51,344 bases of DNA from Lachnospiraceae bacterium (GTDB lineage Bacteria > Bacillota > Clostridia > Lachnospirales > Lachnospiraceae): the NCBI GenBank assembly GCA_016290905.1, contig JAEEVO010000011.1:1-51344 (forward strand), written 5' to 3'. The position numbers were made by a program, and so were the translations under genes. Below the pieces are notes generated by a model that worked only from the letters and a program-made list of their open reading frames with translations, did not search any database and was not told where the DNA came from. Positions 6,343 through 11,388 of the stretch are shown piece after piece (within the stretch, counting starts at the first letter, position 1; every line of letters starts with the position of its first letter).

Positions 6343-6360
6343 AGACGGATAGATCAGAAC

Positions 6361-6399
6361 AGGGCACCGGATGTCTTTCAATATCCGATGCCCTATTTT
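6361..6399 (+). terminator. Hairpin terminator after the DUF4317 gene
   Basis: Twelve-base stem with one mismatch, AGGGCACCGGAT against ATCCGATGCCCT, loop of about 10 bases, then TATTTTA. The T tract is short, so termination may be partial. It is the first element of repeat copy 1. Confidence 0.55.
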
Positions 6400-6526
6400 A
6401 CTGTCTCACTAAACATTATTAAAAAATTAACCTCTTTTCTTTTAGAATATCTATATAAATATCTATATTCAATGCGGCTGATCGCAACTTTGAAAAAGAT
6501 TCCCGGATAAATATCATCAGTTTCAG
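6361..6526 (+). repeat. 166-bp dispersed repeat, copy 1
   Basis: A stretch nearly identical to 8328-8494. It opens with a hairpin (AGGGCACCGGAT pairing with ATCCGATGCCCT), continues through an A/T-rich block and ends at CCCGGATAAATATCATCAG/TTTCAG. I count roughly 15-16 differences over the length. Both copies directly follow the stop codon of a + strand gene, and weak similarity begins a few bases earlier (ACGGAT, then ATCAGAA). In the second copy this sequence forms the 3' part of a predicted minus-strand RNA. Confidence 0.85.
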
Positions 6527-6559
6527 ATGTGACAATGGGGACGGTTCTTTTTGTCACAT
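6527..6559. repeat. REP-like palindrome with GGGGACGG core
   Basis: A perfect 9-base inverted repeat, ATGTGACAA and TTGTCACAT, encloses TGGGGACGGTTCTTT. Palindromes with a GGGGACGGTTC core and GTGAC/GTCAC arms recur in many bacterial genomes and are linked to RAYT-type (Y1) transposases; this link is from memory. No such transposase gene is in the window. A further partial copy of the arm (TTTTGTCACC) follows at about 6567-6577. Confidence 0.6.
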
Positions 6560-6634
6560 TTTTTTATTTTGTCACCTTTTTTAAAACAGGTGTTTTTTTA
6601 AAGCAAATTTTCCATATATGGTGAAAAAACTTAA

Positions 6635-7028: not shown

Positions 7029-7343
7029 ATGGATGCGCATATAAAGAAAGTTTATGTCCCTATGACAGAAACGGGTTTCTATATTTTGCTGTGCCTTAAA
7101 GAACCTAATCACGGATACGGAATAGTCCAGATGGTCAAAGAGATGACAGAAGGGGATATTGTTCTTGCACCGGGAACTATGTACGGAAGCCTGTCAAAGA
7201 TGGAAAAAGACGGGCTGATCAGATTTGTACGTGAAGAGGAGAAAAGAAAGATCTATTCGATCACGGAGCTGGGAAGTGAAGTCTTAAATCTGGAAATGAA
7301 AAGGATAGAACGGCTATATAGGAACATGAAGGAGATGAGATGA
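7029..7343 (+). CDS. PadR-family winged-helix transcriptional regulator
   Basis: 104 residues, the normal length for short (subfamily 2) PadR proteins. AGGAGG stands 5 bases before the ATG. The winged-helix core is clear: ETGFYILLCLKEPNHGYGIV, then the recognition-helix region LAPGTMYGSLSKMEKDGLI, then the wing EKRKIYSITELG, and a C-terminal dimerisation helix. PadR proteins repress genes, often transporters or membrane proteins, and release DNA on ligand binding. The stop codon overlaps the ATG of the DUF2812 gene, a pairing common in Clostridia, so the two proteins are likely produced together and functionally linked. Probably represses its own promoter through the dyads at 6775-6818. Confidence 0.9.
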   Translation: MDAHIKKVYVPMTETGFYILLCLKEPNHGYGIVQMVKEMTEGDIVLAPGTMYGSLSKMEKDGLIRFVREEEKRKIYSITELGSEVLNLEMKRIERLYRNMKEMR

Positions 7344-8302
7344 TGGGAAACGGTAAGACAGTTTTTAAATTTTTTACGATTCCTCAGTATCGGCAGGAAG
7401 AGGATTATCTGAGCGCCATGAATGAAAAGGGGTGGCGTTTTACGGGTGTGACATTTCCCGGCTTTTATCACTTTGAGAAAAGCGAACCTGAACAGGCTGC
7501 CTACAGACTGGATTATAACCGGGAAGGGATCAGGGACAAGGATGAATATGTCCAGATGTTTACTGATTGCGGCTGGGAATATATATGTGATTTCGTAGGA
7601 TACAGCTATTTCCGAAAACAAGGAGCTGTGGGAGAAGAAAGAGAAGAAATCTTCTGTGATGATGCTTCAAGACTTGATATGATGAAGCGTGTTTTCAGAG
7701 GAAAAATCATCCCGCTGATCATACTTTTTGTATCGGTGATAATCCCACAGATGTTTATGAATACTGTAGGAAATTCGGTAGGAATTAAAGGCTGGGGTAT
7801 CGTCCGGGATATTTTGTCGTTCACTTTTCTTGGACTTGCGATCCTGTATCTCGTGATATTTTCTGTAACGGCAGTACAGTTCTATAAATACGAAAAACTG
7901 GTGTCGGGAGACAGTTCTGGAATTCGATTAAAATATGTGAGTGTCTTTGCACTTATCGGTGTGATGATCGCAGGAATCGGACTGTTCTTCTGGCTGTCAT
8001 ACAGATCGTCTTATGAGGTCACGGAAAATGCTGCCGGTTATGTTGTGAAGATAGAAAAGCTGAACACCTCTATAGTTAAAGAATACGATCTGAAAAAGGG
8101 AGATGCCGTAAGGTTTCATATTGCTGAGTTTGAGCGGGGACATCTTTATTTAAGTGTTACGGAAATCGGAAAAGAACCGGTATTTTACAGCGATTCTTGT
8201 AATTTCGGATATTATACGTACGAGATACAAAATGACGGTCGTTTCAGGATCGAAATATCCGGGAAAAAGGCAACGGGAATAGTAGAAGTAACTATAGAAT
8301 GA
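7340..8302 (+). CDS. DUF2812 membrane protein, PadR partner
   Basis: 320 residues. The N-terminal domain (residues about 8-95) has the DUF2812 pattern: KFFTIPQYRQEEDYLSAMNE, GWRFTG, YRLDYN, W-E-Y-I-C and Y-F-R-K. Three hydrophobic segments follow at about 129-150, 155-182 and 198-220, then an extracytoplasmic-looking tail of about 95 residues rich in beta strands. DUF2812 proteins of this type are typically encoded right after a PadR gene and are thought to sense or relay a membrane signal; the actual role is unknown. The ATG overlaps the padR stop. The next sequence, 25 bases later, is repeat copy 2. Confidence 0.85.
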   Translation: MMGNGKTVFKFFTIPQYRQEEDYLSAMNEKGWRFTGVTFPGFYHFEKSEPEQAAYRLDYNREGIRDKDEYVQMFTDCGWEYICDFVGYSYFRKQGAVGEEREEIFCDDASRLDMMKRVFRGKIIPLIILFVSVIIPQMFMNTVGNSVGIKGWGIVRDILSFTFLGLAILYLVIFSVTAVQFYKYEKLVSGDSSGIRLKYVSVFALIGVMIAGIGLFFWLSYRSSYEVTENAAGYVVKIEKLNTSIVKEYDLKKGDAVRFHIAEFERGHLYLSVTEIGKEPVFYSDSCNFGYYTYEIQNDGRFRIEISGKKATGIVEVTIE

Positions 8303-8321
8303 ACGGATCATTTTTTATCAG

Positions 8322-8361
8322 AAAAATAGGGCACCGGATGTCTTTCAATATCCGATGCCCT
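8322..8361 (-). terminator. Bidirectional hairpin terminator
   Basis: Stem AGGGCACCGGAT/ATCCGATGCCCT at 8328-8361. Read on the minus strand the stem is followed by ATTTTTCTG, a reasonable rho-independent terminator for the array RNA; read on the + strand it is followed by TATTTTA and ends the DUF2812 transcript. Confidence 0.55.
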
Positions 8362-8494
8362 ATTTTACTGTCTCACTAAACATTTTTAAAAAATTAACCT
8401 CTTTTCTTTTAGGATATCTATATAAAAATCTATAATCAACGCGGCTGTTCCGCTACTTTGAAAAAGATTCCCGGATAAATATCATCCGTTTCAG
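8328..8494 (+). repeat. 166-bp dispersed repeat, copy 2
   Basis: About 167 bases matching 6361-6526 at roughly 90 percent by eye. It starts with the same hairpin, which here is followed on the + strand by TATTTTA and on the minus strand by ATTTTTC. It therefore can terminate both the DUF2812 transcript and the predicted minus-strand RNA. An internal hairpin CGGAT/ATCCG lies at 8472-8488. Confidence 0.85.
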
Positions 8495-8530
8495 AACCGA
8501 CTCCCGTGCCGGTTACCTGTAAAAAACTAC

Positions 8531-8946
8531 GTTCCCATTGGAATACACCTCCGTTTATTTATTTTACCGATCAAAACTTAAGTTCCCATTGGTCCGTACC
8601 TCATTTCTTTAAAAGTCTTTTTGAATTAAGTTATTGTGTCCTTTGGACCGTACCTCGTTTCTTTAAGATTTGGTTTTGAAATTAAGCTTATGTCTCCTTT
8701 GGACCGTACCTCGTTTCTTTAAAATTTGGTTTTGAAATTAAGCTTATGTCTCCTTTGGACCGTACCTCATTTCTTTAAGATTTGTTTTTTGAAGTTAAGC
8801 TACTGTTTCCTTTGGACTGTACCTCATTTCTTTAAGATTCTTTTTTTTGATTTAAGCTACTGTTTCCTTTGGACCGTACCTCGTTTCTTTAAGATTTTCA
8901 GCCGGATAAAAACTTAAGTTTTCATTGGACCGTACCTCTCTTTCAT
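8531..8946 (-). repeat. Eight-unit tandem array, period 51-57 bp
   Basis: The core on the minus strand is GAGGTACGGTCCAA, preceded by TTAAAGAAAYG. The core tetramer (+ strand ACCT) occurs at 8547, 8598, 8652, 8708, 8764, 8821, 8878 and 8934, so spacing is 51, 54, 56, 56, 57, 57 and 56. The segments between cores are related to each other, not unique. The outer units are most diverged, as expected for an array that grows from the middle. Each unit has a Shine-Dalgarno-like GAGGT and a TAA/TAG about 20 bases after it. Confidence 0.85.
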
Positions 8947-9029
8947 AAATTTGCCGTTATTGGTAAACTCATCAAATTTGCAAAAAGGAAATTATATGTT
9001 AATTGTCCTTGCTTTTTGTTTATGTCTGA

Positions 9030-9058
9030 ATTATACACCATAAAAATAATAATGTCAA
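9030..9058 (-). promoter_or_regulatory. Perfect minus-strand sigma-A promoter
   Basis: On the minus strand: TTGACA (9058-9053), 17-base spacer, TATAAT (9035-9030). Both hexamers are exact consensus with ideal spacing. Transcription would start near 9023 and run into the tandem array. There is no minus-strand protein gene for it to serve. Confidence 0.75.
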
Positions 9059-9163
9059 GCAGAAAATTATAAAAAATCTATAAATTATTTGAAAAAGATT
9101 TTTTAATTGTTTTTGTTGTATGACAATTATAAATTATTCAATCAAAAAACAAAAAAGTAGTTG

Positions 9164-9192
9164 TTGACCTATGGGGATTTTTTGTGTATTAT
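9164..9192 (+). promoter_or_regulatory. Promoter of the GH25 gene
   Basis: TTGACC, 17-base spacer, TATTAT, ending 54 bases before the ATG. It diverges from the minus-strand promoter at 9030-9058; the A/T-rich stretch between them (9059-9163) holds no other signal I can name. Confidence 0.6.
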
Positions 9193-9246
9193 AATAATGT
9201 AGTGTTTAACAGAGCATATGAGACAGAACCTTTTTGCGGAGGAAAC

Positions 9247-11388
9247 ATGAGCGATAAAAAGGATACGACAATTGACGAGCTGCGCGAGGCATACGAGGCT
9301 GACAAGGAGCGGAGAAACGTCCGGGAGGACGAGCTTCAGGCAGCCAAGGACTACCTTGGTGTTCTCCTTAAGGAAATAGAAGAAAAAAACAAAGAGCTTG
9401 AAGCAAAAAAGGCGGAGTCTGCCGGACTTGCGGATGCTTTGAGAAAAAGTGAGAATGAAAAAGAGGTTGAGGTCAAGGCTACAAAAGAGGCTAGGGAGTC
9501 GGGACGATATAAGAGCATATGGATCGGCATATCGATAATAGAGTTCCTTACGATACTTGCCTTGCTTGTTTCATTTTTCATTGTTTGCGGGAAACTAAAA
9601 GCTGATGCCGAGAAAAAGCAGGAGAACATAGACGATGTCATTTCTTCTTATAAGGAAGGGCAGATCGTGACTGACGAAAAGGTGAGGGGCTTCAAGAATC
9701 CTGAACTTGACGGTACTTACGATAAGATAAGAGCGGATTACGAACTGTTGCTGGAAGCATTGAGGACTGGAAATCTTGACCTGCTGCCGAAGGAGGATGA
9801 AAAGGTTGTTGAAGAGCCCCTTACGGCAAAGATAACGGATGACCTTGCGGGCTTCGCGGAGGGCATTCTCTTAAGGGACGGGTTTACCTACAGATCTGAG
9901 AAAATAGACGGACTGGAATACCTTGTATTTTTAAAGGATGATCTGAAGGTCTGCTATAAAAACGAGTATTTCCTTGATGACAGGCAGTATAAGTATTCCA
10001 TGATAGTTCAAAAAGGCGACAAGAGGATATACGAGCACATCAACTATGATTTCAGCAAGAATCCTTCGCTTTTATGCCCGATGATAGTCAAGCTAAACGG
10101 AAGTGAGATGGTGCTCATTACCGACTATGCCGGATACGGGAGCATGCCGGAACTTTTCAGGATGTTTGATGTAAGAGATCTTACCGAGTATAACGGCGAC
10201 GATATGCACGGCAGGATAAACAAGCTTATAAACACGTCCTTCTCTGAGGATCCTTCGGGACTTGCCGAAGCGCCGTTCGTTTTAAACCTTTCGACTACAA
10301 AGGCTTCTTATAAGTACGGATTCAACGAGACGGGCTTTAATGAAATAGGTTACAGCGGAAATGAAGCTACGGAAAACGAGCTTATCGATATCGTGAGCGA
10401 ATTCAGGCTTGAGTTTTCAGAGGAAGGTATCTCCTGGCTTACGGAGGTTAAGATCGGAAGCGGATATTACCTGGGTGAGCTTAGAGGTGAGCTGACACTT
10501 GGTTACGGAACCGTGCTGATCAATAATGCCAAGTTCGGTGCATTCGTTCCTTATAATGTTGAGGATCCCGAGCTTCTGGGTATCATTATCCCGGCCGAGT
10601 CGGTACCCGAGAACTATCTGACGATAGGCGGACGACAGTCTGAAACATATTATGTTGCAGTGAACGAAAACATTACAAAGAGCACCTACGACGTGACGAA
10701 GCTCGATGTGACGGATCGGGACAACTGGGTATATTATGATGAGAACGGAAAGCAGGTATCCATACGTGGTATTGATGTTTCCAGATATCAGGAAGAGATT
10801 GACTGGAAGCAGGTGGCAAAAGCCGGAGTGAAATTTGCCATGATCCGTGCGGGCTTCAGAGGCATAAACGAAGGAACTTTGGAAACCGATCCTTATTTTG
10901 AGGCAAACATGAAGGGAGCGGCCGAAGCAGGCATTCAGATAGGAGTATACTTCTTCTCACAGGCGGTAAATAAAACCGAAGCGGTAGAGGAAGCCGACTA
11001 TGTCGCAAATCTTCTGACCGGCTATGAGATAAGTTATCCCGTTGTCTTCGATACGGAGCGTTATGCAAAAGAAGCAAGGGCAAACGACTTAAGCGTTAAG
11101 GACAGGACTGATATATGCATAGCTTTCTGTGACAGGATAACCGAGCTGGGATATACACCGATGATCTATGCGAACACCAAATATATGGTTATGGGACTTG
11201 ATCTTGAAAGGCTGGAAAAATACGATAAGTGGTTTGCATGCTATACAAATCATATAACCATGCCGTATGACTTTAAGATGCTTCAGTACTCCGATACCGG
11301 TGTGGTACCCGGCATAAAGGGAAATGTCGACCTGGACATCTCGTTTGTGGATTACTCAAAGAACGTCGTGAAAAAGGCAGAGGGCTGA
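9247..11388 (+). CDS. Membrane-anchored GH25 muramidase (lysozyme family)
   Basis: 713 residues from the ATG at 9247, chosen because GCGGAGG precedes it; a frame opening at 9184 has no ribosome site and overlaps the -10 box. Residues 1-88 are a charged coiled coil (repeated E-K-N-K-E-L-E type heptads), likely cytoplasmic. One membrane helix spans about 91-115, giving a type II topology. Residues 120-500 are an extracellular region without recognised domains. Residues 505-713 are a GH25 domain: GIDVSRYQ with D510, IRAGFRG, GVYFFSQA and the catalytic strand VVFDTE with D602 and E604. GH25 enzymes cleave the MurNAc-GlcNAc bond of peptidoglycan. Probably a wall-remodelling enzyme. It stands as its own unit before hemW. 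Confidence 0.85.
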   Translation: MSDKKDTTIDELREAYEADKERRNVREDELQAAKDYLGVLLKEIEEKNKELEAKKAESAGLADALRKSENEKEVEVKATKEARESGRYKSIWIGISIIEFLTILALLVSFFIVCGKLKADAEKKQENIDDVISSYKEGQIVTDEKVRGFKNPELDGTYDKIRADYELLLEALRTGNLDLLPKEDEKVVEEPLTAKITDDLAGFAEGILLRDGFTYRSEKIDGLEYLVFLKDDLKVCYKNEYFLDDRQYKYSMIVQKGDKRIYEHINYDFSKNPSLLCPMIVKLNGSEMVLITDYAGYGSMPELFRMFDVRDLTEYNGDDMHGRINKLINTSFSEDPSGLAEAPFVLNLSTTKASYKYGFNETGFNEIGYSGNEATENELIDIVSEFRLEFSEEGISWLTEVKIGSGYYLGELRGELTLGYGTVLINNAKFGAFVPYNVEDPELLGIIIPAESVPENYLTIGGRQSETYYVAVNENITKSTYDVTKLDVTDRDNWVYYDENGKQVSIRGIDVSRYQEEIDWKQVAKAGVKFAMIRAGFRGINEGTLETDPYFEANMKGAAEAGIQIGVYFFSQAVNKTEAVEEADYVANLLTGYEISYPVVFDTERYAKEARANDLSVKDRTDICIAFCDRITELGYTPMIYANTKYMVMGLDLERLEKYDKWFACYTNHITMPYDFKMLQYSDTGVVPGIKGNVDLDISFVDYSKNVVKKAEG

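Follow-up and report, generated by a model that had tools for sequence, protein, structure and literature searches.

A stand-alone RNA gene of Lachnospiraceae with tandem Shine–Dalgarno-like units that may hold ribosomes

Introduction

CsrB and RsmZ are RNAs that titrate a translation-related factor through multiple sites, and they are expressed from their own promoter and end at their own terminator. The bar gene of phage lambda represents another type of small element, the minigene or start-stop mini-ORF. Protein hibernation factors and protein-titrating RNAs are also known, and to our knowledge no natural RNA that titrates the small ribosomal subunit has been reported before. Two more systems are relevant here: the axe-txe minigene (PMC8708949) and the RoxS sponge of Bacillus subtilis, an RNA sponge of a small RNA (PMC8216469). 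Within the scope of our literature search, which most subscription journals fall outside, no tandem Shine–Dalgarno (SD) or ribosome-titrating RNA gene is described.

In this work, we have analysed a minus-strand locus in a stretch of 51,344 nucleotides (the window) from contig JAEEVO010000011.1 of the Lachnospiraceae bacterium draft genome GCA_016290905.1. Like CsrB and RsmZ, its array RNA has multiple sites and its own promoter and terminator, and it would titrate a translation-related factor; in contrast to them, its target would be the ribosome, it shows no positive association with CsrA, and instead of GGA hairpin loops its units appear to present a mostly unstructured extended SD followed by a start-stop. 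It resembles the lambda bar and axe-txe minigenes in that, in most units with ATG, an SD precedes an ORF of a few codons that would occupy ribosomes, but here many such units form an array, nearly half of them lack a usual start codon, and the whole is a conserved RNA gene that stands alone. With 6S RNA it shares a closely similar promoter, found in the same genus, and the nature of a stand-alone RNA that would act on the core machinery, although it has no match in Rfam 15 to 6S or to any other family. The decoy logic by base pairing also recalls the RoxS sponge (PMC8216469), whereas the complement of the array RNA is the 16S tail.

Results

The promoter, array and terminator described earlier were confirmed and exceed chance expectation by a wide margin. 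The promoter of the locus is a sigma-70-type TTGACA-17-TATAAT on the minus strand (9030-9058, with TTGACA at 9058-9053 and TATAAT at 9035-9030) that agrees with the consensus at 12 of 12 positions, as the preliminary description of this DNA had recognised, and transcription of the array RNA would likely start near 9023. A promoter scan returned 9 promoter-like sites in 8250-9260, against a shuffle mean of 3.5. The plus-strand site at 9164-9192, which had been taken as one of two convergent promoters, lies ahead of the right-hand GH25 gene, in divergent orientation to the array; convergence comes from the left, where the DUF2812 gene (7340-8302) is transcribed toward the array and meets the same inverted repeat that forms the terminator. 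A PadR-type regulator followed by the DUF2812 protein (7029-8302) is encoded convergently with the array.

Eight units follow one another in register on the minus strand, with spacings of 51, 54, 56, 56, 57, 57 and 56 nt, within the range of 51-57 nt given earlier. At up to one mismatch the core GAGGTACGGTCCAA has 7 sites in the draft genome, all 7 inside the array, and the version of the eighth unit is GAGGTGTATTCCAA. Unit 1 (8914-8950) is composed of an extended SD, the GAGGTACGGTCCAA core and ATG AAA ACT TAA. The core is followed by AAG GAA ACA GTA GCT TAA in units 2 (8852-8894) and 3 (8795-8837), by AAG GAG ACA TAA in units 4 (8744-8780) and 5 (8688-8724), and by AAG GAC ACA ATA ACT TAA in unit 6 (8626-8668), none of these five having a start codon. 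Unit 7 (8578-8614) carries the core and ATG GGA ACT TAA, and in unit 8 (8527-8563) the diverged core GGAGGTGTATTCCAA precedes ATG GGA ACG TAG. The start-like triplet is AAG in 5 of the 8 units and ATG in 3, and all 8 have a stop in its frame. As stated earlier, the locus holds no long ORF, yet this in-frame stop recurs in every unit and an ORF of 7 codons lies at the terminator.

A 3΄ part of ~150 nt lies between the array and the terminator. The alignment of RNAs with the architecture of the window (type A, see below), read by eye, reveals a 3΄ hairpin (8496-8513, minus strand) with an invariant ACGGGA loop and a varying stem, whose changes look by eye like covariation. The terminal mini-ORF, MFSETVK, occupies 8360-8401 on the same strand (SD GAGGT at 8401-8397, ATG at 8383, TAG at 8360), and its stop is inside the base of the terminator stem. 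The intrinsic terminator (8319-8370, minus strand) has 21-nt arms (8319-8339 and 8350-8370) that are 90% complementary and a T-run, TTTTT, at 8326-8322; a simple terminator scan missed it and gave 1 other site. In the genus, GGGCATCGG is present at 16/16 loci and CCGRTGCCC in 15/16. The 166 bp that had been described as a separate repeat belong to the array RNA and form its 3΄ end; a shortened and decayed second copy of this end (94% identity, without array and with the T-run lost) lies at 6358-6527, minus strand. Beside this copy (window 6358-6560), a GTGACAAAAAGAACCGTCCCCATTGTCAC stretch resembles repeats found near REP-associated transposases and may reveal how the 3΄ fragment moved. Rfam 15 returned no family at gathering score at the locus and only chance-level matches at E ≤ 10, in line with the earlier view that it belongs to no known family.

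The unit core, derived from 73 fetched loci with 209 distinct units, comprises an A-rich lead, (G)GAGGU and AC[AG]G[UA]CC, with GGUACRGWCC near-invariant. Essentially no variation is seen at the final G of GAGG or at either C of CC; the other SD purines drift, and some units have weak SDs such as GGCGGU in locus L091 and GAAGGU in L116. Start and stop codons were counted in 202 units picked with a matrix that ends at +12 and ignores later positions, a repetition of the counts made because the matrix of the first unit collection reached +25 and favoured a stop at +9. The triplet at start-codon distance was ATG in 95 units, AAG in 36, CCN in 34, TTG in 13, ACA in 8, GTG in 1 and others in a few, and 93 of the 202 units had none of ATG, TTG and GTG. 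An in-frame stop within 6 codons was present in 89/95 ATG units (25 and 22 in the other frames) and in 79/93 units without ATG, TTG or GTG (27 and 31 in the other frames); when the matrix was built from the 74 genus units only, 79 of 85 ATG units had the in-frame stop, versus 21 and 20. Stops of ATG units are found at +6 (21) and +15 (18) and are rare at the neighbouring offsets +7 (1), +8 (2), +14 (9) and +16 (5), so they follow the frame, whereas a fixed stop at +9 alone could be part of the motif. The in-frame stop is thus nearly as frequent in units without a usual start codon, a pattern that simple start-stop translation does not predict. The CsrA-type sequence ANGGA occurs in 111/202 units. 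Almost no consensus structure was obtained for 61 aligned units (RNAalifold, -1.0 kcal/mol). A unit hairpin UCC-AAW-GGA was discarded, as by eye it is missing from first units and RNAalifold gives almost no common structure, and so was a long helix of the first and last units seen in a single-sequence fold, which by eye is not kept in relatives.

The 16S gene, read from four Lachnospiraceae genomes, ends in GGCTGGATCACCTCCTTTCT, and we take this to be the end of the mature 16S rRNA. In RNAduplex predictions with this tail, 182 distant units gave a mean of -17.8 kcal/mol and 74 genus units -18.3 kcal/mol, compared with -10.8 kcal/mol for shuffles and -10.7 kcal/mol for 66 gene-start regions, these being the first ATG of six-frame ORFs of at least 200 codons in the window and five genus loci, some of which are not real starts. 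When 90 of the 182 units were compared with 755 windows of one genome's 16S, ITS and partial 23S, the top three windows by mean energy and by gain over shuffles were those of the tail; the single best duplex window was in the tail for only 46/90 units, and three consensus-like strings had other 16S windows within about 1.3 kcal/mol of it. Shuffling the A-rich lead changed the mean from -17.7 to -15.5 kcal/mol, and shuffling the block downstream of GGU changed it from -17.7 to -17.0 kcal/mol, with 122/182 units better than their own shuffles. The CC is paired in 176/182 predicted duplexes, and its replacement by AA weakens the mean to -13.6 kcal/mol. The small cost of shuffling the downstream block goes against our pairing model, so 16S pairing by itself does not account for the invariance of CC. 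With these predicted energies, the interpretation of the unit as an extended SD is well supported.

Neighbouring units are kept apart. Among 96 distinct spacings shorter than 120 nt, the minimum is 46 nt and the mode 50-57 nt; the value 46 occurs five times, always in loci belonging to a single genus, and is followed by 49. A looser count contained a single 26, and an array outside the family (G821) has one spacing of 45. Given the footprint of a ribosome, this floor suits one ribosome per unit. The best upstream promoter of 69 arrays had a mean of 1.45 mismatches (0-1 in 42/69), versus 2.90 on the opposite strand (1/69), and a terminator was found in 54/70 arrays versus 32/70 on the reverse strand, a contrast that is weak given the symmetry of hairpins; in this promoter and terminator set, 21 of 71 'arrays' have only one recognised unit. 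In three genomes of the same genus, the first 53-56 nt of the query also matched the promoter of a different gene; there, GGTGTATAATTCAGACATA precedes an RNA that in one genome is 6S RNA by Rfam and in two is alike by eye. This 6S-like promoter suggests strong constitutive transcription of the array RNA.

An ATG ORF of 3-25 codons, usually 4-8, ends between -8 and +10 nt of the terminator stem in 55/75 arrays, a set that leaves out 14 of 89 arrays without a called terminator and counts one place twice (L024 and L077). The same rule was satisfied by 19% of random anchors and by 7/51 ordinary ORFs with a terminator near their stop, these being six-frame ORFs of at least 120 codons, some of which are not genes. 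Some of the misses (the window, L015, L018 and L021) are due to wrong terminator calls by the script. All eight aligned type A RNAs, translated by eye, have M-x-x-E-T-V-K-stop at the terminator, and within one genus the terminal peptides differ (MSYIV, MNVID, MNDI, MNYIG). Since the terminal peptides mostly vary between relatives, it seems to be the position and not the product that is conserved. In four loci of one genus (L103, L105, L113 and L114) the terminal ORFs are longer than 4-8 codons and have a YSV-like end, some of them starting from TTG. Those of L159 (G821) and L162 (G997), from two families, share LDIK by eye and enter the terminator stem (MTLDIKNEQK and MLDIKSVEK).

It had been proposed that absence of the promoter-array-terminator arrangement from other genomes would speak against a dedicated transcription unit; it is not absent. 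Judged by sequence, 16 of 24 genomes searched in this genus keep a locus with promoter, several units and terminator, with the promoter within 2 mismatches at 16/16 loci. The DNA search covered 61 genomes and matched 20, of which 17 were of the same genus (own genome included); in one of these (G007) the match is the 6S-like promoter only. The array match is absent from 8 of the 24, and 6 of those 8 are less than 90% complete. Two architectures were distinguished: type A, that of the window, with units ~56 nt apart, and type B, with units 67-79 nt apart and inverted repeats between them. Among 14 genus contexts, a divergent GH25 gene adjoins 8 (type A) and a YjfB-like gene is present in 6 (type B). 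A skipping-rope RNA (RF02924) lies just 3΄ of the array in a same-genus genome (L016, 2306-2375).

Beyond the genus, an exact pattern run over 84,980 species genomes returned 17 contigs, which all come from metagenome assemblies. The label is Lachnospiraceae or Clostridia for 15 of them and 'bacterium' and 'Eubacterium sp.' for the remaining two (L051 and L061), whose arrays have diverged strongly: they keep the core but differ in promoter spacer and terminator. At E ≤ 0.05, a sequence-only unit model matched 145/299 Lachnospiraceae genomes; in many of them the matches cluster in one place, while single weak ones may be due to chance. In an order-level draw, 48/392 genomes matched the model at E ≤ 0.01, 10 of them outside Lachnospiraceae, two of which (L098 and L121) read as small arrays. 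Since loci were picked by unit-model match, these counts refer to the arrays found and not to all genomes. The exact two-core pattern occurs in 9/391 Clostridia and 3/249 phylum genomes, own genome in both, and the reversed pattern also matches a handful. Read by eye, G821 and G997 are real arrays outside Lachnospiraceae; the former has three units (ATG TTC CGG followed by TAA, TAA and TAG) with spacings of 45 and 46 nt, and its terminal ORF enters the terminator. The two-core matches in G949, G841 and G898 look, from their motif, like FMN riboswitches, and that of G1215 lies in G+C-rich, coding-like sequence. Unit matches fall on two or more contigs in G205 (C29 and C112), G099, G150, G182, G196, G247 and G330, and in G205 both places were read (L078 and L126); paralogous arrays may be common, and contig breaks could fake some of them. 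A viral pattern scan gave 35 contigs, none of which by eye had an SD-like context, and a search of plasmids gave no match.

Two known classes of locus were considered and rejected. A type III toxin-antitoxin RNA (ToxI) would have an endoribonuclease toxin beside it, and none is present among the window neighbours (GH25, DUF2812 and PadR) or the YjfB-like genes at the 6 type B loci. A CRISPR array would have near-identical repeats, unique spacers and cas genes; here spacers are alike and cores diverge, and a scan of four neighbours in the window showed no cas-like family.

Discussion

Our results lead us to lean towards a stand-alone RNA gene that would engage one ribosome per unit without making protein, and so park or titrate free 30S subunits or initiation capacity. 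Each unit would present its extended SD (A-rich lead, GAGGU and GGUACRGWCC core) to the 3΄ tail of the 16S rRNA, and from this complementarity we infer that ribosomes bind. At start-codon distance they would meet either ATG, sometimes TTG, with an early stop, or a non-start triplet (AAG, CCN or ACA). With no start or an early stop, 30S subunits or initiating ribosomes would be recruited and at most very short peptides made; the array RNA probably holds ribosomes rather than making protein. The distance from one unit to the next, about 45 nt or more, could leave room for a ribosome on each of two neighbouring units. The strong 6S-like promoter and the intrinsic terminator would yield an abundant RNA, and its likeliest net effect, and thereby its putative physiological role, would be that of a ribosome buffer in which free 30S subunits or initiation capacity are held. 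Among the functions first guessed for the locus, the comparative data favour the SD-rich ribosome decoy; titration of CsrA, a mobile repeat and an origin from phages find no support. The broader proposal is that the array RNA represents a class of non-coding RNA found throughout Lachnospiraceae and in some other Clostridia, which would serve to hold ribosomes through tandem 16S-tail-complementary sites, start-less or start-stop, with one ribosome each and a 6S-like promoter; this is more tentative, and we rate it as somewhat less likely than not.

The tests of ALTERNATIVES covered CsrA, mRNA mimicry and phage or plasmid origin. The main rival to the ribosome reading is a protein sponge, a CsrB-like RNA for a putative RNA-binding protein (or a small RNA) that reads GGUACRGWCC, in which the SD and the in-frame stop would reflect a natural target that is itself a ribosome-binding site and a need to curb pointless translation. 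This we consider unlikely, even though it would account for a core, G..A....CC, that is near-invariant while the SD purines drift (GGCGGU, GAAGGU), for a CC block that 16S energy leaves unexplained, and for the ANGGA sequences in over half of the units. Copies of the motif resembling those of an mRNA target are absent: the exact core is almost confined to arrays, which contain 25 of 26 exact matches in 8 genomes (the other one is in G231) and 7 of 9 in this genome, and at up to one mismatch the motif and its reversed control have 129 versus 154 matches in the 8 genomes and 44 versus 29 in this genome. CsrA itself is no general partner and was rejected, as PF02599 is found in 19 of 48 strong-array genomes (best E ≤ 1e-4) versus 154 of 299 overall, with lists matched by hand, and an 11-unit array (L091) is present in a genome without a CsrA match (G091). 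Moreover, it is not obvious why a small RNA-binding protein should call for a floor of 45 nt or for ORFs that abut the terminator.

These terminal ORFs raise two further explanations. In one, the locus is a small-peptide gene, whose product is the terminal mini-ORF or the formyl di- or tripeptides of the ATG units, with the array feeding ribosomes to it. The frequency of the terminal ORF (55/75) and the recurrence of MxxETVK in the type A genus RNAs, of MKLLEIH-like peptides in several genera and of the LDIK pair in G821 and G997, seen by eye, speak for it, but the sequence varies freely among relatives, as in the MSYIV group, and 93 of the 202 units lack ATG, TTG and GTG; we find this improbable. 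In the other, to which we give equally little credence, ribosomes on the last mini-ORF would overlap the terminator stem and cause read-through into antisense or downstream RNA when initiation is plentiful, as a sensor of translation. A stop that is usually 0-5 nt from the base of the stem, nearer than for ordinary ORFs, speaks for such a sensor, yet no common downstream target exists, this being the convergent DUF2812 gene in the window, a YjfB-like gene in 6/6 type B loci and other sequence elsewhere. Much less probable still is a repeat that acts at the DNA level or is mobile (iterons, REP-like or CRISPR-like) and has no RNA function. The units are tandem repeats and the 3΄ fragment was duplicated at 6358-6527, but against this stand the fixed orientation to promoter and terminator, the in-frame stops and the conserved chromosomal context, with the GH25 neighbour in 8/14 contexts; the earlier suggestion of a mobile repeat also fits poorly with a single array locus in this 81%-complete draft genome and with the plasmid and phage searches, which found no copies.

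What would a ribosome-holding array mean for these bacteria? If the reading is correct, the array RNA would be a counterpart, made of RNA, of the proteins that put ribosomes into hibernation, and we know of no earlier example of a natural RNA that titrates the small subunit. The array would also offer a natural system for asking what effect an SD without a usable start codon has on free 30S subunits, and it might explain unannotated transcripts in Lachnospiraceae RNA-seq. A dominant bacterial family of the gut and rumen would then tune its translation capacity by means of an RNA that mimics many ribosome-binding sites.
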